The position numbers and the translations under genes are program-made. Of a DNA stretch of 64,000 nt, positions 1,151-47,242 are shown piece after piece; within the stretch, counting starts at the first letter, position 1, and every line of letters starts with the position of its first letter. Source of the stretch: a virus; IMG/VR virus record IMGVR_UViG_3300036851_000385, positions 1 through 64,000 of that record; one strand, 5' to 3'. The notes beneath the pieces are model-generated. The model saw nothing but the letters and a program-made list of their open reading frames with translations, did not search any database and was not told the origin of the DNA.

Positions 1151-1547
1151 CGGCTTCCTCCTGTGCCTGCGCGTGTTGGTCGCAGTAGTAGCAGCACTCC
1201 GCCTCCGGGTCGAAGTCAAGGAAGTGGAAGTGATGACCATCGGGACCGCCGGGAAATTCCGTGCATGGTTCGCCGAGAGCGGCGCGAGCGGCTTCGTAGT
1301 GATCCTGGAGATCGCAGGACTGCTCTCCGTCCAATTTCTCCTCGACCGCGAGGCATAAGCGCCGGAGCGCCTTGCGGAGGTCGGCCTCCTGGCGAATGGT
1401 CATCGTGCTGCGGCGGAAGTCATCGAGGTCATCCGAACTGCCGTCTGGCGTCTGGCGTCTGGCGTCTTGTGCCTCGATCTCCTTAAGCAGCAGGGCGTCG
1501 AGCTGCTCCTCCAGGGGGGTGAGCGGCGGCGCGGGGTGGTCGGTCAT
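1131..1547 (-). CDS. Hypothetical protein containing a translated heptamer repeat
   Basis: A 138-residue protein with a charged helical N-terminus and a C-terminal His/Cys cluster (HHFHFLDFDPEAECCYYC) that might bind metal. Residues around 28-36 (DARRQTPDG) are encoded by one arm of the CAGACGC repeat at 1443-1467, in frame, so the gene tolerates the insertion. No family is recognised. Confidence 0.6.
   Translation of the reverse strand: MTDHPAPPLTPLEEQLDALLLKEIEAQDARRQTPDGSSDDLDDFRRSTMTIRQEADLRKALRRLCLAVEEKLDGEQSCDLQDHYEAARAALGEPCTEFPGGPDGHHFHFLDFDPEAECCYYCDQHAQAQEEADAPATC
1443..1467. repeat. CAGACGC heptamer repeat, single arm inside a CDS
   Basis: Three and a half tandem GTCTGGC heptamers with no facing arm. 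It lies inside the reading frame at 1131-1547 and is translated. Same unit as the intergenic fold-backs. Confidence 0.85.
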
Positions 1548-11368: not shown

Positions 11369-11506
11369 TCAGGTGTCGCGGTCCTTGATCTGCTGATCGA
11401 GGTCCGCAAGCTCTCTGTTGATCTGTCTGATCCGCGTCCAACAGTACCCGACGACCAGGCCCGCGAGGAAGCCCATGCCGAAGGTAAAGAGAAAGTCGTA
11501 GGTCAC
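11369..11506 (-). CDS. 45-residue membrane protein with coiled-coil tail
   Basis: A GTG-started short ORF (VTYDFLFTFGMGFLAGLVVG, then TRIRQINRELADLDQQIKDRD). The first 22 residues are a transmembrane helix and the rest a coiled coil, a shape like phage i-spanins. The GTG overlaps the upstream stop (GTGA), which supports translation. Confidence 0.6.
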   Translation of the reverse strand: MTYDFLFTFGMGFLAGLVVGYCWTRIRQINRELADLDQQIKDRDT

Positions 11507-12680: not shown

Positions 12681-12973
12681 CGGGGCTTCCCCAGCGGCTC
12701 CGGCGACGGGATCGGCACCGGCCCTCCCGGCATCTTCTGCTCGATTTTGTCAAGCCGCGCTTCGATCGCCGTAAGGCGCGCGAGGATCTGCTCCGCCGTT
12801 TTCCTCGGAATGGCGTCCAAGAGATCCCGCAGCTTGATCTGCACCGTCTGCTCCGGCGGCTTCGGTATCGGTGCGGCCGTCGCCGTGTCGATCCGCCACA
12901 GGTAGAGGATACACGCGACGACCGCGAGCCAGAACACGAACAAGACGCGGTTGGAGATGCCCTCGGTTCTCAT
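12677..12973 (-). CDS. Membrane protein with periplasmic coiled coil
   Basis: A 98-residue protein: N-terminal transmembrane helix (VLFVFWLAVVACILYLW), Pro-rich hinge, then a coiled coil (LRDLLDAIPRKTAEQILARL...IEARLDKIEQK) and a Pro-rich end. The build resembles an i-spanin or a membrane anchor for the neighbouring enzymes. Coupled by ATGA. Confidence 0.55.
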   Translation of the reverse strand: MRTEGISNRVLFVFWLAVVACILYLWRIDTATAAPIPKPPEQTVQIKLRDLLDAIPRKTAEQILARLTAIEARLDKIEQKMPGGPVPIPSPEPLGKPR

Positions 12974-15370: not shown

Positions 15371-16228
15371 GTGGACAGTACCAAGCACTCCCCACCACCG
15401 CCCACGGATCCGCCGGCAGAGGGCCGCTGGCTCACGCTTGCCGAGGCGTGCGCCCACTACGGGAAAGCGGAGCGCACTCTCCGGATCTGGCTCGGCTCCG
15501 GCAGGCTCCACGGCTACCAGGAGCCGCAGAAGGGGAGGGTGGAGTGGCGCATCTGGAGCATCGAAGGGGAGACGCCAGACGCTCCTGGCTCTTCGCTCTT
15601 GGCGCTTGGCCCGAACCAGGAGCCAGGAGCCAGGAGCCAGGAGCCGGAGCGCAGCGACGTTGTAACGATCGCTCGCGAGCAGTTCCACGAGTTGCTCTCC
15701 CGCCACGAGCTGGCTTGCCGGAGGATCGGGGCGTTGGAGGAGGCGCTGCGCGAACGGCTGCCGGCGCTGGAGGAGGAGCACCGAGCCCAGAGCGCCGAGC
15801 GCCGAGCGGGAGAAGCGCGTCTTGAGGAGAATTGCTCGGTGCTCGGTGCTCGGTGCTCGGTGCTCGAAGGCGAGCGGCGGTGGATCCGGGGGCGGCAGAA
15901 GGCGCTCACAGCAGGGGGAACCGTCTTGGCCGTGCTCCTGGCCCTACTGGGCGCGCTGGTGCTGCAGGACCGAACGGCAGGACGAGGACCGGGATCCCCC
16001 GCTTCTTCGCCATCTCGATCGTCGCCGCAGTACCCCGGCTTAAATGATCCCAGTACGCGACCAGGCAATGAGCCGCCTCCACCATCTCCCGGTTCCGGAT
16101 CATCTCCGCGCGACCGCGAACGCCTCCGTGTTCCTGGTAGTTCGGCAGATAACGGCGGAACGGAACCTCTCGCGCCTGCGCCCACGCCTCCGCGAACTGA
16201 TCTGCCCCGCGCGCCCCGCCCGAGATGA
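15371..16228 (+). CDS. HTH-membrane protein with heptamer-repeat linker
   Basis: A 285-residue ORF. Residues 20-62 are a MerR/excisionase-like HTH (LTLAEACAHYGKAERTLRIWLGSGRLHGYQ). Two heptamer fold-backs (15581-15645, 15781-15866) encode linkers, and a transmembrane segment follows (TAGGTVLAVLLALLGALVL, about 180-200). The last 90 codons lie antisense over the DUF2493 gene and are low-complexity, so the functional part probably ends near the membrane helix. Possibly a membrane-tethered regulator. Confidence 0.5.
   Translation: MDSTKHSPPPPTDPPAEGRWLTLAEACAHYGKAERTLRIWLGSGRLHGYQEPQKGRVEWRIWSIEGETPDAPGSSLLALGPNQEPGARSQEPERSDVVTIAREQFHELLSRHELACRRIGALEEALRERLPALEEEHRAQSAERRAGEARLEENCSVLGARCSVLEGERRWIRGRQKALTAGGTVLAVLLALLGALVLQDRTAGRGPGSPASSPSRSSPQYPGLNDPSTRPGNEPPPPSPGSGSSPRDRERLRVPGSSADNGGTEPLAPAPTPPRTDLPRAPRPR
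15581..15645. repeat. Heptamer fold-back, AGGAGCC family
   Basis: Degenerate GCTCCTG/GCTCTTC units (15581-15610) face four AGGAGCC units (about 15617-15645). Translated within the ORF at 15371. Confidence 0.75.
15781..15866. repeat. Heptamer fold-back, CCGAGCG / GCTCGGT family
   Basis: CCGAGCG-type heptamers at 15781-15808 face four GCTCGGT heptamers at 15834-15866 across a 25-nt loop, with C/T differences between the arms. Translated within the ORF at 15371. Confidence 0.75.
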
Positions 16229-33103: not shown

Positions 33104-34147
33104 ATGAGACTTCAGCATAAGTCCTTCCCCACCGTCGACTTCAAGGTACTCGACGAAGCTCAAGGCCTGGTTGAGGCTTATGTAAGCGTGTTCCATGTAA
33201 CGGATGCGGCCAACGAGCGCGTCATGCCAGGATTCTTCTCCAAGAGCCTGGAGACGCGGCTGCCAAAGGTCGTGTTCGCGCACGATTGGAACCGGCCGAT
33301 CGGCAAGACGATCTCCGGCACAGAGGAGCGGCACGCTGGAGATTCACGGCTGCCGGTAAATCTCCGGCAGTATGGCGGTCTCTACTGTCTGATGCAGTTG
33401 AACCTGGACGTTCAGGACGGCAAGGACACTCTCTCGCACCTCCGTTTTGGTTCCCTTGATGAATTCAGCTTCGGCTATGACGTGACGCGCGCCACGAACG
33501 CGAAGGACGGCGTCCGCGAGCTGCACGAGGGGACCACCTACGAGGTTTCTCCGGTGCTCGTCGGCTGCAATCCGGCCACGCAACTTGTAGGCGTGAAGGA
33601 CCTGCCGGCAGACCTCTTCGATGTGCCGCAGTCTCTCGCCGATCTTTGCGCCGTCTCCGATGCCCTCTACGCGAGCAAGCTCTGCTCCATCCTCTTTGAA
33701 GGACACCACAGCGACGAGGAGCGCTCACAGCAACTCGAAGCCGCCTTCTCCGAATTCCACCAGGCCGGCGTGGCCTCTCTGAAGGCCCTGATGAACGCCG
33801 CGGGAGACGAGGACGCCAGGGCCGATCTGGAAGCCGAGTACAAGCAGATTTTCTCCGTGCCGGCGCGCACTGCCGGCCGGTTCGACGCACAGCTCCTCGC
33901 TCTGCTTACAGAGGTCGAGGGCGCAAAGACACGGGCTGAAGGCTTGATCGCGATCCGCAAGGAGCAGGGACGCCTGCCCTTCTCACCGGAGCGCCGCGAG
34001 CAACTCAAAGCCCTCTCCGAGGCACTCATCCGCCTCGTCGAGATCACGGCGCCGACGCCCCCTCTCGACCTCACCCTCTTGCAGATGAAAGCGAGCGCCC
34101 GGCGCCGTCGACTATTGGCGCTGGGCGATGGAGCCATTCCCTCATGA
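33104..34147 (+). CDS. HK97-type prohead protease with long C-terminal extension
   Basis: A 347-residue protein. Residues 1-170 fit the U35/HK97 protease family: GLVEAYVSVFHVTDAANERVMPGFF (written across the strand and loop), PKVVFAHDWNRPIG with the catalytic-type His, and SLDEFSFGYDV with the Ser region. The remaining 170 residues are helical, which may serve as a built-in scaffold. It matures the capsid. Confidence 0.82.
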   Translation: MRLQHKSFPTVDFKVLDEAQGLVEAYVSVFHVTDAANERVMPGFFSKSLETRLPKVVFAHDWNRPIGKTISGTEERHAGDSRLPVNLRQYGGLYCLMQLNLDVQDGKDTLSHLRFGSLDEFSFGYDVTRATNAKDGVRELHEGTTYEVSPVLVGCNPATQLVGVKDLPADLFDVPQSLADLCAVSDALYASKLCSILFEGHHSDEERSQQLEAAFSEFHQAGVASLKALMNAAGDEDARADLEAEYKQIFSVPARTAGRFDAQLLALLTEVEGAKTRAEGLIAIRKEQGRLPFSPERREQLKALSEALIRLVEITAPTPPLDLTLLQMKASARRRRLLALGDGAIPS

Positions 34148-35538
34148 ACCCACGATTGAAGGAGCTGCTCGAGACCCTGCGCGCGAAGCAGGCCGAGCAG
34201 GATCTTCTCCTGGCAAAACAAGAGCCGCTCTCCGAAGAGGAAGCCGCTCGTGTCAAAGCCCTGGAAGCCGAACTCTCCAGCCTGGAGGCCGACATCGCCC
34301 AGGCCAAAGAGTTCGCCGACATCGAGCAGAAGGCCGCCCAGCGGCGCGCCCTCGTGACCGTGCCCGTCACCTCCCTCCCGCACCCTTCCGGCAATCCTGA
34401 CGCCCCGGCCGCGAAGGCGTGGGCGCTCCCCCGGATGGGCAAGGCGCGCTACTTCAAGGACGATCCCCACGGTACCCCGGACTGGCGCAGCGCCGAAGAG
34501 AAAGCCTATGGCTTTGGCTGCTGGATCGCCGCCACGCTCGGGAAGAGCAGACGAGCGGCGCAGTGGTGCGACGATAACGGCATTGGCTACAAGGCGCAGC
34601 AGGAAGCCGTCAACGAGGATGGGGGGTTCATCGTGGCCCCTCAGTTTGAACAAACGCTCATCGACCTCCGGGAGACCTACGGCGTCTTTCGACAGTACGC
34701 CAACAACTGGCCGATGGGGACCGATCAGCTCTTCATCCCCCGGCGCGAGGGGGGCGTCACCGCCTACTGGGTCGCGGAAGGCGCATCCATCACCGAGTCC
34801 GATCCGGCATGGGGGCAGGTCGGCCTCGTCGCCAAGAAGCTCGCGGCCAATTCCCGGATGAGTTCGGAGTTGTCCGAGGACGCCTTCATCAACGTCGGCG
34901 ACCACACGGCCAATGAGATCGCCTATGCCTTTTCGATCTCCGAGGACGATGCGGGCTGGAACGGCGACGGCACCGACACCCACGGCGGCATCACCGGCGT
35001 TCTGGTGAAGCTCCTGAACCTCTCGGCAACACGCGCGAACATCGCCGGTCTGGTCGTCGGATCCGGCAACCTCTGGAGCGAGCTGGATCTCGTGGACTTC
35101 CACGCAGTCATCGGCAGGCTTCCGGTTTACGCGAGGAACAACCGCGCTCGCTGGTTTTGCTCCGCGCCCTTCTATCACACCGTGATGGAGCGGCTCATGT
35201 TCGAGGCGGGTGGCGTGACCGCCGCGGAGGTCCGCGCCGGCGCACTCACCCCCAACTTCCTCGGCTTTCCCGTCGTGCTCTCGCAGAAGATGCCGATGGT
35301 GGAGGCGAACGACGCCATTCCCGTGGTGCTCGGCGTGCTCGACATGGCGGCGGCGTTTGGCGATCGGCGGATGACCACCATCCGCTTCTCCGAACACATT
35401 TACTTCAACTCCGACCAGATCGGTATCCGAGGGACCGAGCGGCTGGATATCAACGTACATGATTTAGGAAACGTGTCCGCAACGGCGTCTCTGCGCGTGC
35501 CCGGCCCCGTCGTCGGCCTGGCGACTGCGGCGAGCTGA
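34144..35538 (+). CDS. Major capsid protein, HK97 fold
   Basis: A 464-residue protein. The N-terminal 85 residues form a charged coiled coil (delta/scaffold domain). The HK97 fold begins near QEAVNEDGGFIVAPQFEQ and continues with ANNWPMGTDQLFIPRREGG, AYWVAEGASITESDPAWG, AFSISEDDAGWNGDGTD, WFCSAPFYHTVMERL and MTTIRFSEHIYFNSDQIGIR (given in parts). ATGA-coupled to the protease that probably removes the delta domain. Confidence 0.9.
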   Translation: MNPRLKELLETLRAKQAEQDLLLAKQEPLSEEEAARVKALEAELSSLEADIAQAKEFADIEQKAAQRRALVTVPVTSLPHPSGNPDAPAAKAWALPRMGKARYFKDDPHGTPDWRSAEEKAYGFGCWIAATLGKSRRAAQWCDDNGIGYKAQQEAVNEDGGFIVAPQFEQTLIDLRETYGVFRQYANNWPMGTDQLFIPRREGGVTAYWVAEGASITESDPAWGQVGLVAKKLAANSRMSSELSEDAFINVGDHTANEIAYAFSISEDDAGWNGDGTDTHGGITGVLVKLLNLSATRANIAGLVVGSGNLWSELDLVDFHAVIGRLPVYARNNRARWFCSAPFYHTVMERLMFEAGGVTAAEVRAGALTPNFLGFPVVLSQKMPMVEANDAIPVVLGVLDMAAAFGDRRMTTIRFSEHIYFNSDQIGIRGTERLDINVHDLGNVSATASLRVPGPVVGLATAAS

Positions 35539-35551
35539 TAGGAGGCCCCTC

Positions 35552-35992
35552 ATGATCATGACTCAAGGCCTGAAGTTCCAGCAGGTGCTCGCGCCGATCA
35601 GCATCAACGGGACGGCCGCGACCACGCTCTCGATCGACACCAAGGGGTACGATCATCTCGACGTGGTGGTTCAGTTCGGCGTCGTCGGCGCGGCGGCGTT
35701 TGACGCCTTCGCGCTCCAATCCAGCAACACCGACGCCAGTTACGCCGCCGTGACCGGACTCACCGCCTCCGGCTCGACCGGGGCGAACCGACTCCCCCAG
35801 GCGACCGACGACGCGAAGATGGCGCATTTCGGCGTGAACCTGATGGGCCACAAGCGGTTCTTCTCCCTCGTGGCCGATCCCGGCGCCGTCGATTGTCTCG
35901 TCTCGGCGGTTGCGGTCCTCTCGCGCGGCGAAGAGACCCCCAACTCGATGGCCGATCGCGGCTTCGACATCGAGTTCCTGCTGCCGGCATAG
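35552..35992 (+). CDS. Head-associated structural protein, probable decoration protein
   Basis: A 146-residue beta-rich protein that follows the capsid gene with AGGAGG 7 nt before its ATG. SISTN-type strands (INGTAATTLSIDTKGYDHLD) and a C-terminal strand (GFDIEFLLPA) fit small head or decoration proteins. Family not recognised with certainty. An internal ATG at 35558 is possible. Confidence 0.5.
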   Translation: MIMTQGLKFQQVLAPISINGTAATTLSIDTKGYDHLDVVVQFGVVGAAAFDAFALQSSNTDASYAAVTGLTASGSTGANRLPQATDDAKMAHFGVNLMGHKRFFSLVADPGAVDCLVSAVAVLSRGEETPNSMADRGFDIEFLLPA

Positions 35993-36009
35993 AAAGCAGA
36001 CGCGGAAAG

Positions 36010-36110
36010 CAGACGCCAGACGCCAGACGCCAGACGCCAGTAGGGAGAGACTGCCGGTATACGGGCACTCCCGCCTTTACTGGCGTCTGGCGTCTTACGT
36101 CTGGCGTCTG
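36010..36110. repeat. CAGACGC fold-back repeat, copy 2
   Basis: Four heptamers (36010-36041) face four with one variant (CTTACGT, 36078-36110). The loop carries GACTGCCGG...CGGGCACTCCCG. It fills the gap between two structural genes and ends about 15 nt before the next ATG. Confidence 0.9.
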
Positions 36111-36125
36111 GGAGCGATAGCGACC

Positions 36126-36323
36126 ATGGCACACACCTTCAAAGACGGCGACGCGGTGGAGGTTCCGGGCTACGGCTCCGGCACCGTCTACGATGTCGGG
36201 CAGGATGCAAACGAACACGCCGTGCGCGTGAAACTGGACGACGGCCGCGGCTCCGTGCGCGTGGACGTTCGGAACCTGAAGAAGGCGGTTCAGGATAAGG
36301 CGGTGCGCGGCCCCCGCGAGTAG
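36126..36323 (+). CDS. Hypothetical small beta-barrel protein
   Basis: A 65-residue protein. GDAVEVPGYGSGTVYDV and AVRVKLDDGRGSVRVDV are typical of an SH3-like barrel. Start preceded by GCGATAGCGACC, identical to that of the gene at 36795. Sits between two heptamer fold-backs. Confidence 0.55.
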   Translation: MAHTFKDGDAVEVPGYGSGTVYDVGQDANEHAVRVKLDDGRGSVRVDVRNLKKAVQDKAVRGPRE

Positions 36324-36340
36324 GACAGAAAGGCAGTTTA

Positions 36341-36431
36341 CAGACGCCAGACGCCAGACGCCAGTGGGGAAGGGAGGGACTGCCGGCAGTCCCGCCTTCA
36401 CTGGCGTCTGGCGTCTGGCGTCTGGCGTCTG
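36341..36431. repeat. CAGACGC fold-back repeat, copy 3
   Basis: Three heptamers (36341-36365) face four (36400-36431). The loop holds a perfect palindrome, GGGACTGCCGGCAGTCCC (36376-36393), so almost the whole element can fold into one hairpin. Confidence 0.9.
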
Positions 36432-36459
36432 CTGTGCGCGCCTGGAGGCGTAGCCGACC

Positions 36460-36789
36460 ATGAGCTACCAGAAGACATTGATGCAAGACGCGGCCGGAGC
36501 TACTGGGAACGGCACGACGATGGGAGTCAAAGAGCGCGGCGGCGCGATCCACTTCGAGAATATCGGCTCGCCGGTGGGCACGGTCACATTCGAGGGGGCG
36601 TTGAACGCTGCGGAGGACGCCTTCATTGCCGTGCCGCTGGAGACGGCGACCGGAACGCTGGTGACCTCGACCACGACGCCGGGGTACTTCCGGCTGCCCT
36701 TGAACCACGGCCTGGCGGTCGTCCGCGCGCGTATCTCGGCGTTCACCAGCGGTGCTTTTTCGATCCACGGCGCGACCACGAGGCGATAG
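36460..36789 (+). CDS. Structural protein, hypothetical
   Basis: A 109-residue beta-rich protein (GGAIHFENIGSPVGTVTFEG; VVRARISAFTSGAFSIHG). Preceded by GGAGGCGTAGCCGACC, a variant of the shared leader. Probably a head or neck decoration protein; no family is recognised. Confidence 0.5.
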   Translation: MSYQKTLMQDAAGATGNGTTMGVKERGGAIHFENIGSPVGTVTFEGALNAAEDAFIAVPLETATGTLVTSTTTPGYFRLPLNHGLAVVRARISAFTSGAFSIHGATTRR

Positions 36790-36794
36790 CGACC

Positions 36795-37703
36795 ATGCTC
36801 AAGCTACCGAGTGAGCTTGTCATCCACAACACCTATATCGAGTTCGATAACCCGTCGGGGAAGACGTTTGGGGTGGCGCCGGCCGGAAAGGTGCGGATGC
36901 ACGCAAACTCGGCGGGGACGGCGGTCCTTCAGTCGATCTCCGGGTCGGCTTACGGAGCGGTAGGCGCCGCCCCCATGCTCCTTACCGCATTAGTCGCGAG
37001 TGAGGTGCCCCTCACCATCCAGGCGCACACGTCGCAGTCGGCGGATATGTTCGTCGCAAAAGCCGTCGGCAACAACAACGGGTTTCGCGTCCAGAAGGGC
37101 ACGGGCGACAACTTTTACCCGGCGGCCTACGGCGACGACAACGATAAGGTTTTTGCCGCACACAACACCTCGGCGAGTGACGCCGAGCAGTTCGTGATTC
37201 TCCAGGAGAGCGCGGATACGACGTTCCGCAACATGCGGGGCGTGACGAACTTCAATCGGTCGGGAGCGTTTGAAACGACGCTCAACGTGAAGGCCACCGC
37301 AGGCCAGTCGTCCTCCCTTCAGCTTGTCAGCGGCACCCTCGGCACCGGCCAGGCGATCCTGCGCTTCGTGGAAGCGACGACCTCCCAGTGGCAGATTTAC
37401 AAGATCGGGAGCGACGCGAATCTCTACTTCCGCGATACGGTCAACGGCCGCATGATCCTGACGATGGGACAGGGCGCCTCCGCTGCCGCCACGCTCTGTA
37501 CCTTCGACAGCCGCGTGAAAACTCTGGGACGGCTCTACATGAACACGCCGGCCGATGCGCCGACCGACGGCGACCTCTCCAACAATTCGGCATCCGTCTG
37601 GATCGACGAGGCAACGCCCGCCGTCAAGATGCGGATCCGCAAGACCGACGGCACCTATCTGACGCTCACGATCACCAACGGCGCTTCTCCGACCCTGGCC
37701 TAA
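36795..37703 (+). CDS. Head-fibre or tail-fibre-like structural protein
   Basis: A 302-residue beta-rich protein. Repetitive strands with N/G turns, FGVAPAGKVRMHANSAGTAV, and a C-terminal portion (LYMNTPADAPTDGDLSNNSA, then VWIDEATPAVKMRIRKTDGT) resemble shaft and end domains of fibres. Its position after the capsid suggests a head fibre. Leader GCGATAGCGACCATG. Confidence 0.5.
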   Translation: MLKLPSELVIHNTYIEFDNPSGKTFGVAPAGKVRMHANSAGTAVLQSISGSAYGAVGAAPMLLTALVASEVPLTIQAHTSQSADMFVAKAVGNNNGFRVQKGTGDNFYPAAYGDDNDKVFAAHNTSASDAEQFVILQESADTTFRNMRGVTNFNRSGAFETTLNVKATAGQSSSLQLVSGTLGTGQAILRFVEATTSQWQIYKIGSDANLYFRDTVNGRMILTMGQGASAAATLCTFDSRVKTLGRLYMNTPADAPTDGDLSNNSASVWIDEATPAVKMRIRKTDGTYLTLTITNGASPTLA

Positions 37704-37710
37704 CCTTTCG

Positions 37711-37944
37711 ATGAACGAACTCCTGGCGACTGCCGCCGAGCCTGTCCAGCTTGGCGAGCCGGATCTCGCCTATTACCTCGCCCTTCGCGCCCGCCTGGAC
37801 GAGGCAAAGGCGCAGGTCGCTCTCTGGCAGCAGGCACTCGAGGCGATCGTTCCCGTCCTGGCCGCGCGCCACGGCATCGAAGGGCACCTCCTGATCGATT
37901 CGGCCGGCTTCTATACGACGGCGCCCGAGGAAGACGACGGCTGA
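37711..37944 (+). CDS. Hypothetical protein
   Basis: A 77-residue mostly helical protein (DLAYYLALRARLDEAKAQVALW). TGATG overlap with the next gene. No Shine-Dalgarno is seen. No family is recognised. Confidence 0.5.
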   Translation: MNELLATAAEPVQLGEPDLAYYLALRARLDEAKAQVALWQQALEAIVPVLAARHGIEGHLLIDSAGFYTTAPEEDDG

Positions 37945-39455
37945 TGACGAGGGTTATTGCCCAGGATGAACTCTGGATCCGCTCCGGCAAGATCCGGTTT
38001 TCGGGTGGATCGGGTCCGCGTGGCGTGGCCCCCTCGGACGGGGCCGATCTGATCTACGATCCCACGCGGGGGGCGCTGGTCCTCTCCGTCGATGGGCGGC
38101 CCTATCGCCCGGTGGGAACCGCGCTGGTCTCCGACGTGCAGGCGGATTTTGGCGCGAAAGGTGACGGAAGAACGGTTACCGACGGCGCAATGACCTCCGG
38201 CTCGGCCGTGGTCACCTCGGCCACCGCAGCGTTCACAGCAGCGGACGTTGGCAAGTTCATCAGCGTCCGAGGGGCGAACACGGCGGTGGGCGGGGAGACG
38301 CTCGTCGGCACGATCGCGACCTACATCTCCGCCACGCAGGTAACGGCATCGATCGCCGCCAACGCCACCGTCTCCTCAAAGCGCGTCGTCTGGGGCACGA
38401 TCGATACTCTCGCCATCCAGGCGGCGCTGGACGCGGTAGCGGCCGCGCGGCGCGGCGTGGTGTACCTGCCTGTCGGTATCTACCTGATCGACGCGCAGCT
38501 TTTGCTCTCCGGCGTCTCCGACGACGATCCGATCCGGGGAGCGACCGTGTGCGGAGAGAAAGGGGCAACGCTCTGGGCGGCGGATGTCAATATCCCGTAC
38601 ACGGGAGGGGTGACCGGGAGCCTCCTGGCCTCGATCTACGCCGAGGACGTGACCTTTCGTGATCTGATTTTCCAGGGAACGGGCACGGGCTTTACCGGCC
38701 CCCGGCTCTGCGCGCTGCGGATGACCGGCAAGGGGCTGAACACCGTCTATCACAATCTGACCTTCAACGATTTCAAGGGGGCCATCCCGCTTGACTACTC
38801 CGGCACCCAGCGCGCGGTGATCGACACCTGCTACGTGGACGCCTGCGACTACGGCATCGTTCAGAGCAACCTCGACGGCTCGGCGTCGATCGTGAATTGC
38901 CAGGTGACGAACCCAAGCCAGGCGGATACCCTCGTGCCCGGCATCTGCGTCTCCGGGCGCGATAACCGGATCTCGAAGAACTACATCGAGACGCCGGCCG
39001 AAACGTTTTCCATCTGGATCGGCGACACCAGCCAGGACGCCTGTGTGATCGGCAACACGATCAAGGGACCGGGGACGACCACCTCGTCGGGCATCCGCAT
39101 CCACGCCGATACCGGGGGGGATTGCGTGATCATGGGCAACCAGATCGACGGCTGCGGGACCGCGATCGTCTTAAACGGCACCTCGATCACGGTGACCGGC
39201 AACCAGATCCGGGGCGGGGGCGTGGGTTATACCGGGATCGCCACCTTCTACGACGGCAACCCCGCATCCGAGGTCTCCATCACCGGCAACGCCTTCGCCA
39301 ACTGTGCCAAGGGCATCGACGGCGGCACGCTGGCTTCCGGCTACGTGACCGTCACCGGCAACATCTTCCCTGCCAGCGTGACCGACCCCATCGCGGGCGA
39401 GGGCTCATGGACCAACTCGAAAGGCGTCGGGAACGCGGGCCTGGCGGACTTCTAG
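37944..39455 (+). CDS. Right-handed beta-helix (pectate lyase-like) structural protein
   Basis: A 503-residue protein. VQADFGAKGDGRTVTDGAM is the hallmark start of pectate-lyase-type beta helices in phage spikes. Short repeats of N-x-hydrophobic strands follow (ITVTGNQIRGG, VSITGNAFANC, VTVTGNIFP). Such proteins often degrade surface polysaccharide as tail spikes; here it lies in the head-gene block, so it may be a head or collar spike. Confidence 0.75.
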   Translation: MTRVIAQDELWIRSGKIRFSGGSGPRGVAPSDGADLIYDPTRGALVLSVDGRPYRPVGTALVSDVQADFGAKGDGRTVTDGAMTSGSAVVTSATAAFTAADVGKFISVRGANTAVGGETLVGTIATYISATQVTASIAANATVSSKRVVWGTIDTLAIQAALDAVAAARRGVVYLPVGIYLIDAQLLLSGVSDDDPIRGATVCGEKGATLWAADVNIPYTGGVTGSLLASIYAEDVTFRDLIFQGTGTGFTGPRLCALRMTGKGLNTVYHNLTFNDFKGAIPLDYSGTQRAVIDTCYVDACDYGIVQSNLDGSASIVNCQVTNPSQADTLVPGICVSGRDNRISKNYIETPAETFSIWIGDTSQDACVIGNTIKGPGTTTSSGIRIHADTGGDCVIMGNQIDGCGTAIVLNGTSITVTGNQIRGGGVGYTGIATFYDGNPASEVSITGNAFANCAKGIDGGTLASGYVTVTGNIFPASVTDPIAGEGSWTNSKGVGNAGLADF

Positions 39456-39487
39456 AGGCAGGCAAAAAGCGCCGGAGCGCAGCGGCC

Positions 39488-39742
39488 ATGACATTTACGA
39501 TCACGGGGACGATCACCCGGTGCGCCGGGCTCAACCACTACCAGGTGCCGGTGGAGCTGGGCAACGGGGTCACGGGCACCCTCCACATCATGAAAAGCGA
39601 GCTGGAGTATGAGCCGGCATCGGACCTGATCGAGACGCGGGAGCGGATGGTGGCGCGGATGGTCTCCGCGGGCAAGGAATTGAACGCCGTGACCTTTGCC
39701 CAGTGGCGCACGGCCCTGGAGTTGAAGACGTTCAAGCTTTAG
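39488..39742 (+). CDS. Hypothetical protein
   Basis: An 84-residue protein starting MTFTITGTITRCAGLNHYQV, beta-rich N-terminus and helical C-terminus. The leader GGAGCGCAGCGGCC is another variant of the shared start context. It is followed by a heptamer fold-back. Confidence 0.55.
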   Translation: MTFTITGTITRCAGLNHYQVPVELGNGVTGTLHIMKSELEYEPASDLIETRERMVARMVSAGKELNAVTFAQWRTALELKTFKL

Positions 39743-39746
39743 GAGG

Positions 39747-39848
39747 CAGACGCCAGACGCCAGACGCCAGACGCCAGTAAAGGCGGGACTGCCGGGAGAC
39801 GGGCACTCCCTCCCCAACTGGCGTCTGGCGTCTGGCGTCTGGCGTCTG
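39747..39848. repeat. CAGACGC fold-back repeat, copy 4
   Basis: Four heptamers (39747-39778) face four (39817-39848). The loop contains CGGGACTGCC...GGGCACTCCC, nearly the same as copy 5. Lies between two structural genes. Confidence 0.92.
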
Positions 39849-39863
39849 GGCGCGTAGCGACCT

Positions 39864-40892
39864 ATGGCCTACCAGAATGAGAGCTTCTGCCAGTATCCGT
39901 GGCTGGACCTTCCCACGTCGAACCTGACCGTGCTGACGCTGGATGCTTCGGGAGAGAAGGCGGCAGGCGTCTTCCGGGTAGCGAAGACGGGATCGATACA
40001 GAAGATCCACTTCTTGCTCTCGACGGTGACGACGGGACAGACGCTGAAAGCCTCGCTTCAGGATGTGGATCTGGCGACGGGGGATCCGGACGGAACGATT
40101 GACCAGTCGGGGACGGTCGCGGTCGCCGATGGGGACGATAACACATGGAAGACAGTGACGCTTGGGGCTGTCCGTGCGGTTTCGCGAGGCGATCAGTTGT
40201 CGGTCGTCTTTGAGTTCGATGCGACCATTGGGAACCTGCAGATTGTCTCGGGGAGCGCGATTCCGGTCATGAATGTCTACACGGACCTTTATACGGGGAC
40301 GTGGGCCAAGCAGGCACGGTGTCCGCTTTTCATTCTGGAGTATGACGATGCGTCGATTGTGCCGATCCCAGGTGTCCTCTATGGTCTGGGCACGTCGCTC
40401 GACTTCAATTCCGGCTCGGCCGCGGACGAGGTGGCGCTGCGCTTCTCGCTGCCCTTTCCGGTGAGAGTGATGGGGCTCGGGCTGTATGGCCGGGTGTCGG
40501 GTGATGTCGATCTGGTGCTTTACTCAGGTACCACGGCGCTTGCCACGACCTCCCTGGACAAGGAGGTGCGTCAAACGTCGACGGACGGCATGAACGTTGG
40601 CCTGTTCTCTGCGGCCCAGGAATGTGCGAAGGATACGGTCTACCGGGCGGCGGTCAAGCCCACATCGGCAACGAGCGCGAGGGTCATTTATAACGATGTG
40701 TCTATCGCTGCCCATCTGGACGCGGCGCCGGGCGGTCGGGAGCTGCACTATTCGAGCCGGGTGGACGGGGGCGCCTGGAGCGATACCACCACGCGGCGCC
40801 CCTCGATCGTGCTCCTGATCGAAGGGTTCGATGACGGCGTGAGTGCCGGGGGTCTGATCGGCGCCGGCAGCATTCGCGGGGGCTTCCAGTAG
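39864..40892 (+). CDS. Structural protein, fibre- or collar-like
   Basis: A 342-residue beta-rich protein (LTVLTLDASGEKAAGVFRVA; WKTVTLGAVRAVSRGDQLSV). It looks like two similar jelly-roll-type halves (about 1-160 and 165-330), as found in carbohydrate-binding or fibre proteins. No catalytic motif is seen. Starts GCGTAGCGACCTATG. Confidence 0.5.
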   Translation: MAYQNESFCQYPWLDLPTSNLTVLTLDASGEKAAGVFRVAKTGSIQKIHFLLSTVTTGQTLKASLQDVDLATGDPDGTIDQSGTVAVADGDDNTWKTVTLGAVRAVSRGDQLSVVFEFDATIGNLQIVSGSAIPVMNVYTDLYTGTWAKQARCPLFILEYDDASIVPIPGVLYGLGTSLDFNSGSAADEVALRFSLPFPVRVMGLGLYGRVSGDVDLVLYSGTTALATTSLDKEVRQTSTDGMNVGLFSAAQECAKDTVYRAAVKPTSATSARVIYNDVSIAAHLDAAPGGRELHYSSRVDGGAWSDTTTRRPSIVLLIEGFDDGVSAGGLIGAGSIRGGFQ

Positions 40893-40895
40893 CTG

Positions 40896-42905
40896 ATGGA
40901 TTCCATCTTCAAAGGCTCCACGGATGTCACGCTTTACTTCGTGCTCGTCGATTCCACGACCGGTCTTCCGGAAACCGGAGTCGCGCACACGTCGGTTACC
41001 GGGAGCTACGTCCGGAACCGGGGGACGCGTACCGCGATCAGCATGGTGAACCTCGCGGCGCCGGACTCCGCGCATTCCGACGGCGGTTGGGAGGAAGTCG
41101 ACAGCACCAATCAGCCGGGGCTTTACCGGTTCGACATCCCAGACGCGGCCTTTGCAACCGGCGCCGATAAGGTGATCGTCTCCGTGGTCGTCACCGGCGT
41201 GAAGACGGAGCACCAGCTCATCCCGCTCTCCGACTGGAACACGCAGGTAGCGGCGATCCCAAACGCCGCGGCAGCCGCCGCGGGGGGCCTCTTCACCCGC
41301 GGCACCGGGGCGGGGCAGATCAACCAGGCGGCGGATGGGATGATCGATGTGAGCGTCGTGCGCCTGGCAAACGTCGCGCAGAGCTTGACCGATCTCAAGG
41401 ATTTCGCCGACGACGGATACGACCCCATCACGAACAAGGTGCAGGGGGTGGTGCTCACGGACACCCTTACGACCTACACCGGGAACACCCCACAGACGGG
41501 AGATTCCTTCGCGCGCCTGGGCGCTCCGGCAGGCGCTTCCGTCTCAGCCGACATCGCGGCCATCGAAGGCCAGACCGACGACATCGGGGCGGCGGGCGCG
41601 GGCCTCACGGCCGTTCCCTGGAACGCGGCGTGGGACGCGGAGGTAGAGAGCGAGGTCGCGGATGCCCTCGCTGCCTATGACGCCGCGACCGGAGGCGACG
41701 TCACCACTGCCGCTGCCTCCGTCACCGTCACCGGTATTGCCACCAATACGATCGGCTCGGGGGCGCTGGATCAGACCGCGATCACCGAGATCCGATCGCT
41801 CTTTTCCGGGACCGCCGACTCGGGCACGACGACGAGCCTGACGGATGCGGATTTGAACCAGGTCGACGCGGACTTCTGGAAGGGGCAGATCCTTCTCATC
41901 ACGTCGGGGAGTACGATCAACCAGTCGCGCACGATCACCGGCTTCAACCCGGCGACGGACACTCTGACCGTCGACCGCGCCTTCACGCAGGCGATAACCA
42001 CCAACACCTACGAGATCCTTCCCGCAGGGGCGGCGCTTGTGGCCGCGGATGCCGTGACAGAGATCCAGGCCGGGCTGGCCACCGCCGCGGCGGTGGCCAC
42101 GGTGCAGGCGGATACCGACGACATCCAGACACGCCTCCCGGCCGCCCTCGTCTCCGGTCGGATCGACGCGAGCGTGGGAGCCGCCGCGGCGAACACGATC
42201 ACGGCATCTGCGCTCGCCACCGATGCCGTCACTGAGATCCAGGCAGCCGTGGCGGCGGGCTCCGTGGCCTCGGTGACCGGCTCAGTCGGCTCAGTGGTCG
42301 CAGGTGTCACGCTCGCCGCCTCGGCCGTCCAGGCGATCTGGGACGCGCTCACTTCGGCGCTCACGACCGCCGGCTCGATCGGCAAGCTCCTCGTCGACAA
42401 CATCAACGCCACGATCAGCAGCCGCCTGGCCACCGCTGGCTACACCGCGCCGCCCACGGCCGCGGCGAACGCCGATGCCGTGTGGGATGAGACCCTCGCC
42501 GACCACCTGACGGCGGGGTCGACCGGCTCGGCATTGAACGCGGCAGGCTCCGCCGGTGATCCGTGGAACACCGCCCTTCCCGGCGCCTACGGGGCAGGGA
42601 CGGCCGGCAAGATCGTCGGGGACAACATCAACGCCACGGTCAGCTCGCGCGCCACGCCCGCCCAGGTGAACGCCGAGGTGCTCGACGTGCTGACCGTCGA
42701 TACCTTCGCCGAACCTCTGGCGATACCGGATGCGACTTCGAGCCTGAAGGACAAGCTTTCGATGCTCTTCATGGCGCTTCGCAACAAGGTGCGGCAAACG
42801 GAGACCGCCCAGGAAATCTGGAACGACGCCGAGGATACGCCGGTAGCGACAGCCACGGTGTCCGACACGGGCGACGAAACGGTCCGGAGCAAGTTCGAGA
42901 GCTAA
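40896..42905 (+). CDS. Large repetitive structural protein
   Basis: A 669-residue protein. Residues 1-110 form a beta domain typical of phage head-fibre or upper-collar proteins (FKGSTDVTLYFVLVDSTTGL; YRFDIPDAAFATGADKVIVS). The rest is an Ala-rich repeat shaft (TDDIGAAGAGL, TAVPWNAAWDAEVESEVADA, repeated VTEIQAG units), and ends ETVRSKFES. It looks like a fibre shaft with a trimer end; likely attached to head or neck. Confidence 0.6.
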   Translation: MDSIFKGSTDVTLYFVLVDSTTGLPETGVAHTSVTGSYVRNRGTRTAISMVNLAAPDSAHSDGGWEEVDSTNQPGLYRFDIPDAAFATGADKVIVSVVVTGVKTEHQLIPLSDWNTQVAAIPNAAAAAAGGLFTRGTGAGQINQAADGMIDVSVVRLANVAQSLTDLKDFADDGYDPITNKVQGVVLTDTLTTYTGNTPQTGDSFARLGAPAGASVSADIAAIEGQTDDIGAAGAGLTAVPWNAAWDAEVESEVADALAAYDAATGGDVTTAAASVTVTGIATNTIGSGALDQTAITEIRSLFSGTADSGTTTSLTDADLNQVDADFWKGQILLITSGSTINQSRTITGFNPATDTLTVDRAFTQAITTNTYEILPAGAALVAADAVTEIQAGLATAAAVATVQADTDDIQTRLPAALVSGRIDASVGAAAANTITASALATDAVTEIQAAVAAGSVASVTGSVGSVVAGVTLAASAVQAIWDALTSALTTAGSIGKLLVDNINATISSRLATAGYTAPPTAAANADAVWDETLADHLTAGSTGSALNAAGSAGDPWNTALPGAYGAGTAGKIVGDNINATVSSRATPAQVNAEVLDVLTVDTFAEPLAIPDATSSLKDKLSMLFMALRNKVRQTETAQEIWNDAEDTPVATATVSDTGDETVRSKFES

Positions 42906-42911
42906 TGAAGA

Positions 42912-42995
42912 CAGACGCCAGACGCCAGACGCCAGACGCCAGTGAAGGAGGGACTGCCGGGAGACGGGCACTCCCTCCCCACTGGCGTCTGGCGT
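42912..42995. repeat. CAGACGC fold-back repeat, copy 5
   Basis: Four heptamers (42912-42943) face three (about 42971-42995). The loop GGGACTGCCGG-GAGACGGGCACTCCC (split here) is almost the same as in copy 4, which suggests recent duplication. Confidence 0.92.
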
Positions 42996-43017
42996 CTGGC
43001 GTCTGGGAACTGCCCTG

Positions 43018-43281
43018 ATGGCACTCGACACACAGAACCGGCGTATGGCCGCACTCGGCGCGAGCCTTCTCTTTCGCGTCGTGCCCCCCGTACCGGACAA
43101 TACGATCGGACCCCTCGACCGGCTGCAGCTTCTCGCGCTCTTCCGATTCGGCCTTGAGGCGGGTGGCGGCGGCGGGGAGGGCGAAGGCGTCGTGAACCCG
43201 ATCGGCATCTTGCTCACGACGATGAATCCGATCGGCGTGCTCTTTGAAGACACCCTCCAGCCCATCGGAATAATTGAATGA
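43018..43281 (+). CDS. Hypothetical protein
   Basis: An 87-residue protein with NPIGILLTTMNPIGVLFEDT, a repeat of NPIG(I/V)L at the end, and LQPIGIIE. ATGA-coupled to the next gene. It could be a small structural or assembly protein; no family is recognised. Confidence 0.5.
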   Translation: MALDTQNRRMAALGASLLFRVVPPVPDNTIGPLDRLQLLALFRFGLEAGGGGGEGEGVVNPIGILLTTMNPIGVLFEDTLQPIGIIE

Positions 43282-43649
43282 TCCCTCGCTATTCCCTGGA
43301 ACTCACGCACAAGGCGCAGAACCAGTTCCGGTTCAATGTCACGCGCGCAGGGATCGCCGAGGACCTCTCGACGTGGAGCAACCTGTGGTTTGCGGCAAAA
43401 AGGCGGGCAACCGATCCGGATGACCGGGTGATCTTCGAGAAGGTGCTCTTTGCCGGCGTAGAGATCATCGACGCGCCTACCGGATTGGTCGAGGTGACGC
43501 TTGAGCCGACTGACGGCGACGACCTCACGGAAGGCTCCCGCTACAACCTCCACGGCGATGTGGGCGGCACGGACGGCGACCTCAAGGTGTGGCAGTTGTT
43601 CACGCTGGCAATCACGCTCTATCCGCGCATCCGCCGGAGTAGCTTCTAG
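43278..43649 (+). CDS. Structural protein, hypothetical
   Basis: A 123-residue beta-rich protein: YSLELTHKAQNQFRFNVTRA, then LWFAAKRRATDPDDRVIFEK, then EVTLEPTDGDDL. This pattern recalls small phage proteins with an Ig-like fold placed before connectors. TAGTG overlap with the next gene. Confidence 0.5.
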   Translation: MIPRYSLELTHKAQNQFRFNVTRAGIAEDLSTWSNLWFAAKRRATDPDDRVIFEKVLFAGVEIIDAPTGLVEVTLEPTDGDDLTEGSRYNLHGDVGGTDGDLKVWQLFTLAITLYPRIRRSSF

Positions 43650-44350
43650 TGTCGAAGCCCGAGTACCCCAGCGGCGCGGATGTCGAGCAGGTCATCGAGG
43701 GCCTGCGACTGTTCGACGTGGCCGACCTCGCCGAAGTGTTCGAGTTCATCGACACGGACGCCCTGGCGCTCGCCGCCGTCCACCAGTGGGAGACCGAGAC
43801 CGGCTGGATCCCGTTCCTCGCCGACGTGGACGACGACAACCCGGATCAGACGCGCTACTTCGATCCGCCCGGCCCAAATTCCCGCGGCGAAAGCATAGGC
43901 GGCGGCAACCACCTGATCCTCGACTGCGGCATCGTGGAACTCGTCACCGTACATACCGGTTGGTCTCCCACGTTTGCCGGCACGGCGGCCCTCGCCGGCA
44001 CCGACTTTCGCCTCTGGCCATACAACGCGGACCCCCTCGATCGTCCGTGGACGGAGCTTCGGTTCAAAGTGCCCCAGTGGGGGCAGCCGCAGTCCATCAA
44101 GATCGTGGGGAGGTTCGGGTATGCGGCGACCGTGCGGGAGGACGTGTGGTTGGCGATCCTCCATCAGGGGGTGACGCTCGCGCTGCCGGAGGTGGCGACG
44201 AGGGTTACGGGGGGCATGGTCGAATGGAAAGAAGCCGATGCCTCCGAGCGGTACGGCGAGGCGTTCCTCTTCGGCGATAAGGGCGTGGGGAGTGCCTGGG
44301 GCCTTGAATGGTCTCGGACTGTGAATCGCTACCGCCGCGTGGTGATCTGA
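43649..44350 (+). CDS. Head-tail connector-like protein
   Basis: A 233-residue protein with a GTG start. The C-terminal half (WTELRFKVPQWGQPQSIKIV; RFGYAATVREDVWLAILHQG; ALPEVATRVTGGMVEWKEAD) resembles gp6-type connector (adaptor) proteins that sit below the portal, including the usual helix after GRFGY. The N-terminal part is larger than in the usual 100-residue members. Confidence 0.55.
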   Translation: MSKPEYPSGADVEQVIEGLRLFDVADLAEVFEFIDTDALALAAVHQWETETGWIPFLADVDDDNPDQTRYFDPPGPNSRGESIGGGNHLILDCGIVELVTVHTGWSPTFAGTAALAGTDFRLWPYNADPLDRPWTELRFKVPQWGQPQSIKIVGRFGYAATVREDVWLAILHQGVTLALPEVATRVTGGMVEWKEADASERYGEAFLFGDKGVGSAWGLEWSRTVNRYRRVVI

Positions 44351-44772
44351 TGGCGTTGACCCCAAGACAGCGGATCCTCTACACGCACCGCGCGAACCTC
44401 TGGGCCAACACGCGCGCGAAGGACGCGCAGGGGCGGATCACCGGCCATAGCTGGGCGCTCGTCGCCTCCAACATCCCTTGCTATTTCGTCTTTCGGCAGA
44501 GCACCGAAGCCCCCTCCGTGGCCGGAGGACTGGAGGCAGACAATTTTTTCAGCCGGGATGAAATCCACGTCGACGGAACGCTCGCGATCGACTCCGATAT
44601 GGTGCTGAAGAACGTTACCCTTGACGCAGACGGCAGTCAAAGCGCGGCGTACGGGCGTTTCTGGGTTGTCGCCGGCCAGCCGCAGGCGGTGAGTAACCAG
44701 GGGCGGCGCAAGGCCCGCATGAAGGTCGTTCAGGCTGTCCAGATCGAGACGCCTCCGGTAGGGGTGAGCTGA
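44350..44772 (+). CDS. Head closure / head-tail joining protein
   Basis: A 140-residue protein starting MALTPRQRILYTHRANLWAN. The beta-barrel pattern (IPCYFVFRQSTEA; DEIHVDGTLAIDSDMVLKNV; FWVVAGQPQAVS) is typical of the stopper group (gp16/SPP1-like). TGATG-coupled on both sides. Confidence 0.6.
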   Translation: MALTPRQRILYTHRANLWANTRAKDAQGRITGHSWALVASNIPCYFVFRQSTEAPSVAGGLEADNFFSRDEIHVDGTLAIDSDMVLKNVTLDADGSQSAAYGRFWVVAGQPQAVSNQGRRKARMKVVQAVQIETPPVGVS

Positions 44773-45224
44773 TGGCGTTTGACCTCAATCTCATGATCTC
44801 TGAGATCAAGGAGGTCATGGCCGATACCTGGACGGACACGGCACCGCCGGCCGGCGGGATCTGGGAAATCGATCAGCTTGCCTCCGTCTCGTTTGAAGAG
44901 GTTGGCGGGTTCCCGTACGGCGTGGTCGAGATCCCGCCGTCGGAAGATGCGGATTGGGGCCTGAGTAACGACGCGCAAGAAGTGGACGCTTCTTTTCACT
45001 ACGTGGCGCGCGAAGACGCGGACCTCTCCACGCTCCGCGATCGGCTGGAAGAGCTGAAGTCGGCGCTCTTCGTCGCGACCTTTACCGGAATGAACGTGCT
45101 CCGGCGCTCCGGGACCGATTGGAGTGCGCGCCATCCGGCGAACCAGATCTTCATGGCGAAGAAGGTGCCGTACCGCGCCGGATCGCTGGTGATGCGGCTG
45201 AACTTCGGGGAGTCGGCGCTGTAG
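44772..45224 (+). CDS. Tail completion-like protein
   Basis: A 150-residue alpha/beta protein (FDLNLMISEIKEVMADTWTD; YGVVEIPPSEDADWGLSN; VPYRAGSLVMRLNFGES). Fold pattern and position fit tail completion or tail terminator proteins. Its TAG is directly followed by the next ATG. Confidence 0.55.
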   Translation: MAFDLNLMISEIKEVMADTWTDTAPPAGGIWEIDQLASVSFEEVGGFPYGVVEIPPSEDADWGLSNDAQEVDASFHYVAREDADLSTLRDRLEELKSALFVATFTGMNVLRRSGTDWSARHPANQIFMAKKVPYRAGSLVMRLNFGESAL

Positions 45225-45752
45225 ATGGGGCCGATCCTTGGCAGGGCGTTGGTCACTGCGGCAACGCAGGCGCTGCGAACCGCAGGGCGACGACGGATTA
45301 CCGTGGCGTTCCGGCGGCGGCTCTATCTCAAGCTGGCCCAGGGTGTCGCGAAGAAAGCGCAGCAGCTTGATCGCGGCGTCAGGGAAGCGGAAGCCAAGAG
45401 CGCGGATGAGGCCCTTCGGATCGCTCGGGAACTCTCGTCCGGGCGCTTCTCCTTGGCACAACTGGCCCGGATGGGCCATCCCTACAGAATCGGCGGCGTG
45501 CCTCCGCAAGACGCCGCGATCGTGAACAAGCAAACAGGCGCTTTCTATCGCGGCTGGAGAGTCATCGGTCCTCGACAGCGCGGTGGCGATCTGGCGACAA
45601 AGTTGGTCAATGATTCCCCCCAGGCCGAGCGATTAAGCCGGGGCACCTCCCGAATGATTGCAAGACCTATCCTCACGCGCATCCGCGAGCGCGTCGAGGG
45701 CAAACGGCGCGCTCTCTACAAGGCTTCGATCCGCAAGGCACTTCGCTCCTAA
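45225..45752 (+). CDS. Neck/tail component, HK97 gp10-like
   Basis: A 175-residue basic helical protein. Position between connector and tail tube and the KAQQLDRGVREAEAKSADEA helices fit the HK97-gp10 group of neck proteins, but the sequence match is weak. Confidence 0.45.
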   Translation: MGPILGRALVTAATQALRTAGRRRITVAFRRRLYLKLAQGVAKKAQQLDRGVREAEAKSADEALRIARELSSGRFSLAQLARMGHPYRIGGVPPQDAAIVNKQTGAFYRGWRVIGPRQRGGDLATKLVNDSPQAERLSRGTSRMIARPILTRIRERVEGKRRALYKASIRKALRS

Positions 45753-45758
45753 ACCACC

Positions 45759-46277
45759 ATGGCGATCCCTAACTGGCTGCTGGGCCGTCACGTTACGGCC
45801 GTACAGGCGCACGTCCAGACCTTAAACGAGTCGACGGGAGCGCTTGCCGACGTGACAACGCCAACCGCGAACGACCTGGCGAACGTCGTGCTGACGACCG
45901 GCTCCCATTCCTCCGGCACCATCGCCTTCACGACCGGGCTCTTGAACGACATTCGCCTTGTGTCGGACAAGGAGTCGGACAACATTGCCTCCGTCAACAT
46001 GACGACTGCGCACCACGTAGGAATCAAAGTCGGGTATACGATCACCTGCTCCGAAGTGCTCCGCTCCACCGCCGCCGCCTGCCTTCTTGCCAACATCTGG
46101 CACAACGGAACCAGCCGATACATTCGCTTTGACTACGCCCGCGGCGGCAACAAATGGCGGGACTGGTACCTGATGGTTTCCTACTCCGAGACGACTGTTC
46201 GCGGAAAGAACGTCGGGACCATGACCCTTCAAAGCGTCGACAACGGCGGCGGCACCTACACCGCCGCTGACCGGTAA
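45759..46277 (+). CDS. Major tail (tube) protein candidate 1
   Basis: A 172-residue beta-rich protein starting MAIPNWLLGRHVTAVQAHVQ. Alternating strands and helix (IKVGYTITCSEVLRSTAA) fit the tail-tube fold. It is paralogous to the next gene (IPNWLLGRHVT versus IPLWLIGRNVT; ARGGN versus TRGGN; VRGKNVGTMTL versus QKGKSVARITL). Confidence 0.55.
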   Translation: MAIPNWLLGRHVTAVQAHVQTLNESTGALADVTTPTANDLANVVLTTGSHSSGTIAFTTGLLNDIRLVSDKESDNIASVNMTTAHHVGIKVGYTITCSEVLRSTAAACLLANIWHNGTSRYIRFDYARGGNKWRDWYLMVSYSETTVRGKNVGTMTLQSVDNGGGTYTAADR

Positions 46278-46284
46278 CGCGGCA

Positions 46285-46743
46285 ATGGCAACCATTCCCC
46301 TCTGGCTGATCGGGCGCAACGTGACCTCTGTCGTCATCACTCCCCTGGTGGCCGATTCTGCCGGGCTCCTCTCGGCGGCGGCCCTCGGCGCCCAGACGGT
46401 GACGGCGATCGTGGATGAGATCCAGTACTCCGGTGCGACGACCACCCAGGAGATTTCAGCCCTCACTTCGCGCAGGCGCAATGAAGTACCCCTCGAACGC
46501 GACGACCAGCTCGTTTTTACGGAAATCTGTCGGAGCGCTGCCGGATCGGTCATCGCCGCCGCGATCTGGACGGCGGCCGATCTGCCTGATTGGGCGTTGT
46601 TCCAGGCGACCCGTGGCGGCAACTCCGTGGCTTTTTACGGACTTGCCACCCGGTACGAAGAAGACGTTCAGAAGGGGAAGAGTGTGGCGCGGATCACCCT
46701 CCGGATCGTAAACGCCGCCGTCACCAATCCCGCCTACACCTGA
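46285..46743 (+). CDS. Major tail (tube) protein candidate 2
   Basis: A 152-residue paralog of the preceding protein: MATIPLWLIGRNVTSVVIT at the start and LVFTEICRSAAGSVIAAAIW, FQATRGGNSVAFYGLA and KGKSVARITLRIV later. One copy may be a tube protein and the other a tail-end or minor tail protein. Confidence 0.55.
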   Translation: MATIPLWLIGRNVTSVVITPLVADSAGLLSAAALGAQTVTAIVDEIQYSGATTTQEISALTSRRRNEVPLERDDQLVFTEICRSAAGSVIAAAIWTAADLPDWALFQATRGGNSVAFYGLATRYEEDVQKGKSVARITLRIVNAAVTNPAYT

Positions 46744-46744
46744 T

Positions 46745-47242
46745 ATGCAGAAGATCAACCCTTATGATCTCCCCCGGCCATCGCGGCCTGTGGAAGAGCG
46801 AGTCTTCGATGCCGATGGCGTCTCCGTGGTGATCGCCTTCCGCCGGCCCGACGCCGCCGATATGAACATGGCGGCCGAGGTCGCCAAGCGGCTCACGAAG
46901 GACTACATCACCGGCTATCCGGAGGAAGGTACGCCGCCGGCCGAGTTCTTCGATGGGATCAAGGTCTCCGAAGCGCTCTTCATGCTGGCCGCCACCGGCC
47001 AGGAGATGCAGCCGCCGGAAAAGAAGGTCTACACTGCCGAGGAGTTCGTGATGCTCATGGACCGCCTGGAGACAGACGGCGTTCGCATCGCGCGCTGGAT
47101 CAACGAGAAGCAGCAGGATTGGCGGCGCCACCAGGGAAACGGGTCCGGAGCGCCTACGGAGACCTCCTCCGAAGCGCGCTCCGCCTCCACCCCGAGCATC
47201 CCGAGATCACCTTCCGCCGCGACCACCTCCTCCGAAGCCTGA
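46745..47242 (+). CDS. Tail assembly chaperone (gpG-like)
   Basis: A 165-residue protein in the position of lambda G, directly before the tape-measure gene. Helical core (AEVAKRLTKDYITGYPEEGT; AEEFVMLMDRLETDGVRIAR) and a Ser/Thr-rich tail read past the frameshift site. At codons 131-132 (47135-47140) ribosomes can slip -1 to make the 222-residue GT form. Both forms guide tape-measure and tube assembly in known systems. Confidence 0.75.
   Translation: MQKINPYDLPRPSRPVEERVFDADGVSVVIAFRRPDAADMNMAAEVAKRLTKDYITGYPEEGTPPAEFFDGIKVSEALFMLAATGQEMQPPEKKVYTAEEFVMLMDRLETDGVRIARWINEKQQDWRRHQGNGSGAPTETSSEARSASTPSIPRSPSAATTSSEA

Follow-up and report, generated by a model that had tools for sequence, protein, structure and literature searches.

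Heptamer-armed fold-backs at the gene borders of a phage and their likeness to the inverted heptameric pairs of bacterial chromosomes

In two Xanthomonas genomes (X. campestris and X. axonopodis), 186 and 183 arrays of GGGAATC-type heptamers have been described, most often with four units; 89–93% of these arrays are intergenic, lying on average 28 nucleotides (nt) behind the upstream open reading frame (ORF), and 70 and 75 convergent inverted pairs occur in the two genomes (Rehm et al. 2015, PMC4692102). Inverted heptamer pairs are reported for Nostoc PCC 7120 as well, though few in number (PMC4692102). For such arrays, the 7-nt length of the unit, the pairing in inverted orientation and the position at gene ends have yet to be explained. 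Here we analyse fold-backs with CAGACGC heptamers in a phage genome, IMG/VR virus record IMGVR_UViG_3300036851_000385. The record has 70,136 nt in full, of which positions 1–64,000 make up the window; coordinates are those of the window unless the full record is named. An earlier note, made by inspection of this DNA, had described five such elements, mostly between late genes.

Copies, core and predicted fold of the CAGACGC element

The five fold-backs on one plan were borne out, each with arms of 3.4–4.6 heptamers (Tandem Repeats Finder, period 7). A search with CAGACGCCAGACGC gave 35 matches against 1.5 expected, and the full hairpin pattern gave five against 0.00 expected. No CAGACGC fold-back was found in shuffled genomes. 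Perfect inverted repeats of at least 14 nt numbered nine in the real genome and 0–1 in 20 shuffles.

Copy 1 (112–213) has 4.4+4.4 heptamers and its arms are perfect, as the earlier note had said, over 38 bp rather than 37 bp. Copy 2 (36010–36110; 4.4+4.6 heptamers) has two changed bases in the right arm (GACGTAAGACGC). At its left edge, a 13-bp tandem duplication (GAAAGCAGACGCG, 35992–36016) adds one outlying left heptamer and may be a sign of recent slippage. Copy 3 (36341–36431; 3.4+4.4 heptamers) contains the inner perfect pair GGGACTGCC/GGCAGTCCC, and copies 4 (39747–39848; 4.4+4.6 heptamers) and 5 (42912–43006; 4.4+3.6 heptamers) complete the set. The ends first given for the other four copies stood; copy 5 had been ended at 42995, which cut its right arm. 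An unpaired half element of four CAGACGC heptamers lies at 1438–1469 on the minus strand, within ORF 1131–1547(−).

The core of ~43 nt consists of two related, non-identical inverted half-sites, AAGGCGGGACTGCCGG (or a close variant) and GGGGAGGGAGTGCCC. A core 16-mer is common to the copies when they are read in a common direction. Copies 1 and 3 have the core in minus orientation, copies 4 and 5 in plus orientation, and copy 2 is intermediate. Because of the shared 16-mer and the two core orientations we conclude that the five copies, judged by their sequence, are relatives of one another and no independent inventions. The predicted RNA folds of the five copies have energies of −77.4 to −94.2 kcal/mol (z −10.4 to −14.6).

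Near-identical repeats between modules are substrates for homologous recombination, and the earlier note had proposed that the elements are homing or recombination joints for the exchange of structural genes. This proposal found no support, with no relative close enough to reveal breaks in identity. GC content and GC at third codon positions (GC3) are steady across the elements and uniform across the flanking genes, no endonuclease is present at the sites, and the exact stretches shared between copies are only ~31 nt long. We regard recombination joints as very improbable.

The record ends fall inside copy 1, as might happen through an assembly or sequencing artefact. However, an exact 127-nt repeat is common to both ends, as a closed circle would give, and because of this repeat the genome is most likely, on sequence grounds, a circle of 70,009 nt with a GC content of 64.6%. 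The copies measure at most 102 nt, below the 127-nt overlap, so k-mers can span them; moreover, the copies differ from one another in core variants and flanks, and independent genomes show the same plan (see below). The chance of an artefact is thus negligible.

Placement at gene borders and possible action in late mRNA

In a gene map drawn with a simple codon model, copies 2–5 each lie between a stop and the next start, 4–17 nt past the stop and 11–28 nt before the start (stop/start distances of 17/15 nt for copy 2, 17/28 nt for copy 3, 4/15 nt for copy 4 and 6/11 nt for copy 5); this agrees with the earlier note, which had placed four of the five copies there. In the late block (33104–47242), gaps amount to 187 of 13,750 nt (1.4%) when the elements are left out, and the probability that four random placements would all fall in late-block gaps is ~3×10−8. 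This placement shows selection or targeting, without telling which of the two. For copy 2, the next ribosome-binding site (GGGAG) starts at the foot of the stem; for copy 3 it starts shortly past the stem (GGAGG).

Copy 1 is the exception to intergenic placement. Its 102 nt (34 codons) lie, probably in frame, within the 74-amino-acid ORF 5–229(−), directly after a sigma-factor gene whose stop is overlapped by the start of this ORF. The gene (226–1197, minus strand) encodes a sigma-70-like factor with regions 2 and 4.

The neighbours had been described as head or fibre genes. This is borne out only in part: a protease, the major head protein and a protein of tail-spike/pectin-lyase-like type can be recognised nearby, but most of the immediate neighbour genes had no family match.

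Very stable GC-rich hairpins just behind stops could act as transcription terminators or attenuators without a U-tract and so grade the expression of late genes. On the transcribed strand, however, no T-run follows copies 2–5 (1–3 T in 12 nt), as had been noted before, and an intrinsic terminator was rejected for want of a U-tract. Four terminators in succession within one late block would also cut off the downstream genes. We therefore consider termination or attenuation improbable.

The explanation that we favour, with some reserve, is that the copies are a small dispersed heptamer-armed palindrome which is kept at gene borders and, in late mRNA, serves as a barrier between cistrons or as a processing hairpin. 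Its two parts differ in strength. The letters make it very probable that the element is a heptamer-armed fold-back of the inverted heptameric pair class; a function at the RNA level is proposed tentatively, from the predicted fold. The element is made of 3–5 direct heptamers, a ~43-nt core of two inverted half-sites and inverted heptamers. According to this explanation, its arms would lengthen and shorten via 7-nt slippage, and fold-back copying or selection on the stem would maintain their complementarity. Copies would survive where no gene is broken, i.e. between a stop and a start.

In the late polycistronic mRNA, each copy would fold as the predicted 30–45-bp hairpin between two cistrons. 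An intercistronic stem of this length would hinder 3′ exonucleases and suit the double-strand-specific RNase III as a substrate. The likeliest effect would be post-transcriptional: a barrier to 3′–5′ decay and/or an RNase III site that separates the late cistrons, with the next ribosome-binding site staying free at the stem foot. The RNA-processing site suggested in the earlier note is, as a model, still a live reading.

Fold-backs with other heptamers, in the phage and in bacteria

The phage genome contains additional fold-backs with other heptamers, which had been overlooked. A GCGCCGA/GCACCAG-type fold-back at 12184–12252, inside gene 11503–12435(−), has perfect arms of 30 bp in which mixed units are mirrored. 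The CCAGGAG/CTCCTGG fold-back at 15581–15644 is preceded by GACGCCAGACGC, and the GGTAGCC/GGCAGCC fold-back at 66761–66830 of the full record is perfect over 23 bp, again with mirrored mixed units. Two weaker, degenerate fold-backs are built from GAGCGCC/TGCTCGG (15761–15880; missed by the stricter detector) and AGCCGTG/CCGGCTA (9533–9597, inside gene 9097–9891(+)). The sole unit length other than 7 belongs to a 9-mer fold-back (CGCTCCGTT) at 2735–2874, in a 361-nt gap that might serve as an origin or have a regulatory role.

With one detector applied to the whole 70-kb genome, we found eight fold-backs at period 7, one at period 9 and none at periods 5, 6, 8, 10, 11 and 12. Period-7 fold-backs were absent from 20 shuffles, from 228 kb of other viral loci and from four reference phages (44–50 kb each, 194 kb), which make 422 kb of other phage DNA together. 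Since fold-backs occur at period 7 with several units and at almost no other period, the heptamer register seems to belong to the process rather than to one sequence. The mirrored arrangement of mixed units in the fold-backs at 12184 and 66761 would fit fold-back copying.

These fold-backs also bear on a neutral explanation, in which the palindromes are selfish or born by slippage, have no function and are found between genes solely through the loss of insertions elsewhere. Fold-backs of several unrelated heptamers occur in this one genome, two of them inside genes, and the half element and copy 1 lie within ORFs as well. Moreover, among long simple repeats heptamers are the most frequent in many bacteria, and a 7-nt contact length of the polymerase, suggested to favour slippage, has been proposed (as quoted in PMC4679880). 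On the other hand, all four late copies hold near-perfect stems of 30–45 nt between late genes, abutting the next ribosome-binding site. A neutral origin and persistence is a contender, though an unlikely one.

Fold-backs of the same architecture were found in bacterial chromosomes. The strict paired heptamer pattern occurred in 10 of 200 genomes from the order of a Xanthomonadales metagenome-assembled genome. The anatomy there is 3–4 units of the CCGGGATTC type (GGGATTC), an AAGAGC...GCTTTT core palindrome and inverted units, and several copies have a stop few bases before and a start few bases after them. At the pth-ychF border (loci L046–L070), some genomes have element-free gaps of 26–52 nt, and others carry fold-backs of GTGAGTA, GAAAAGG, GGGATTC or degenerate AAGACGC/CAGATGT. 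The unit that occupies this border therefore differs from genome to genome. It is conceivable, if rather doubtful, that heptamer-armed fold-backs form a general class of gene-border elements that does not depend on sequence: slippage in a 7-nt register together with fold-back copying would make palindromes of any heptamer, the same borders would be refilled across lineages by different units since a long intercistronic stem is useful, and phages would use the class between late genes.

We also searched for the CAGACGC element itself, as the earlier note had proposed. The exact hairpin pattern had no match in viral contigs or in GTDB genome contigs, and relaxing it to one and a half heptamers yielded nothing but isolated inverted repeats that have a single heptamer. 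In one of the contigs, from an unrelated virus, a near-perfect stem of 27 bp carries one CAGACGC per side (L012:558–612). Tandem CAGACGC in viral contigs formed single arms, mostly within coding-like sequence; none was found in 299 Pseudomonadota genomes, and 399 genomes of the order of G001 contained one single-arm array (G589), with relatives in G054 and G630. In G630 (contig C2, L088, ~75180–75207), several different short tandem units follow each other in a row, including CAGATGC ×4. The strict detector found no fold-back in the 20-kb pieces of G589 and G054 around the CAGACGC-like arrays, and fold-back density thus varies. The core 16-mer had 11 matches in viral contigs, none flanked by heptamers. 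BLAST of the element matched unrelated plasmids in tandem CAGACGC pieces alone, and phages not at all. No GGGATTC fold-back was found in viral contigs, so phage carriage of this known type is not common. An Rfam search gave no match above the gathering score, and membership in a known Rfam family was rejected.

Several results weigh against the explanation that we favour. The exact unit and core were found as a fold-back in no other record searched, so that the searches point to no host source; the earlier suggestion of a host-derived type of mobile repeat is nevertheless still live and is supported by the identical architecture in bacterial chromosomes. No close phage relative was found in the collections (best major-head match 41% identity, on one 10-kb contig; best terminase ~39%), and among the best matches there was no synteny usable for an empty-site comparison; thus no empty site proves insertion. 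Target-site duplications, one mark of miniature inverted-repeat transposable elements, were not found: flanking direct repeats measured at most 3 nt, no more than in random pairs. The transposase RAYT (Y1_Tnp, PF01797) had no match in the phage while control genomes matched, although a host copy could act in trans. In the Xanthomonadales copies, mirror symmetry of the outer units was seen in 149 of 238, only slightly more than the 137 of shuffled pairings, and 449 of 10,000 shuffles were as good. Finally, the functional claims are predictions from sequence and fold.

The phage encodes a terminase, a portal, a protease and a major head protein. Among its other genes, a subtilase (S8) and a CAP domain are fused in one protein (12970–14730, minus strand), and a DNA methylase is interrupted by an insert of ~450 amino acids with a LAGLIDADG_3 domain (66963–69164 of the full record, minus strand; L009:6964–9165). 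The latter is likely, from its domains, an intein-bearing methyltransferase.

Comparison with known systems

Strong intercistronic hairpins are known from the mRNA of phage T7, where RNase III processing hairpins lie between genes. The predicted stems of copies 2–5 resemble these in kind, the likeness lying in the predicted stem alone, and the T7 sites have no heptamer repeats. Repetitive extragenic palindromic (REP) sequences and the REPINs built from them are likewise short dispersed palindromes outside genes, often at gene ends. Unlike the phage element, they are without heptamer arms and have a RAYT partner; a REP identity was rejected as the phage is without this transposase.

The cyanobacterial short tandemly repeated repetitive (STRR) sequences are multicopy heptanucleotide repeats, including ones inside RNase P RNA (Vioque 1997, as listed in PMC2858038). 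The comparison drawn with them in the earlier note is apt for the unit length. STRR sequences, however, are mostly direct repeats with a single arm, and the paired form, which the note had called unfamiliar, was already reported in Xanthomonas (PMC4692102). Another comparison is with the small dispersed repeats of Nostoc. By description, these resemble the phage element in being small, foldable and associated with heptamer arrays, but differ from it in length; Elhai and co-workers are said to have described them in 2008 as tiny foldable repeats of 21–27 nt, often embedded in such arrays.

The nearest likeness is that to the Xanthomonas-type inverted pairs, which share with the phage element tandem units of 7 nt, at least two (commonly four) units per arm, two close convergent arms able to fold, and an intergenic position just behind a stop (copies 2–5, copy 1 excepted). 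The fold-backs of the Xanthomonadales order share in addition the inner core palindrome and, in several cases, the position between stop and start. The phage unit CAGACGC and its core differ from GGGAATC and GGGATTC/G, and the unit is not of the G-quadruplex-capable GGGANTN type. Density also differs, at ~11 elements per 100 kb in the phage and ~1.4 per 100 kb in X. campestris (Xcc; 70 pairs, with a genome size of ~5 Mb).

With its several independent heptamer fold-backs, of which four lie between late genes, this small phage genome offers a compact test system for the origin (slippage, fold-back copying, insertion) and the effect (mRNA decay, processing, cistron isolation) of such elements. 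Judged by its architecture and its placement, the phage element is one of the inverted heptameric pairs, but its unit and core set it apart from the Xanthomonas sequence family. The hairpin is of a kind already known, and little studied, in bacterial chromosomes; its build-up in a phage with several heptamer units is new.

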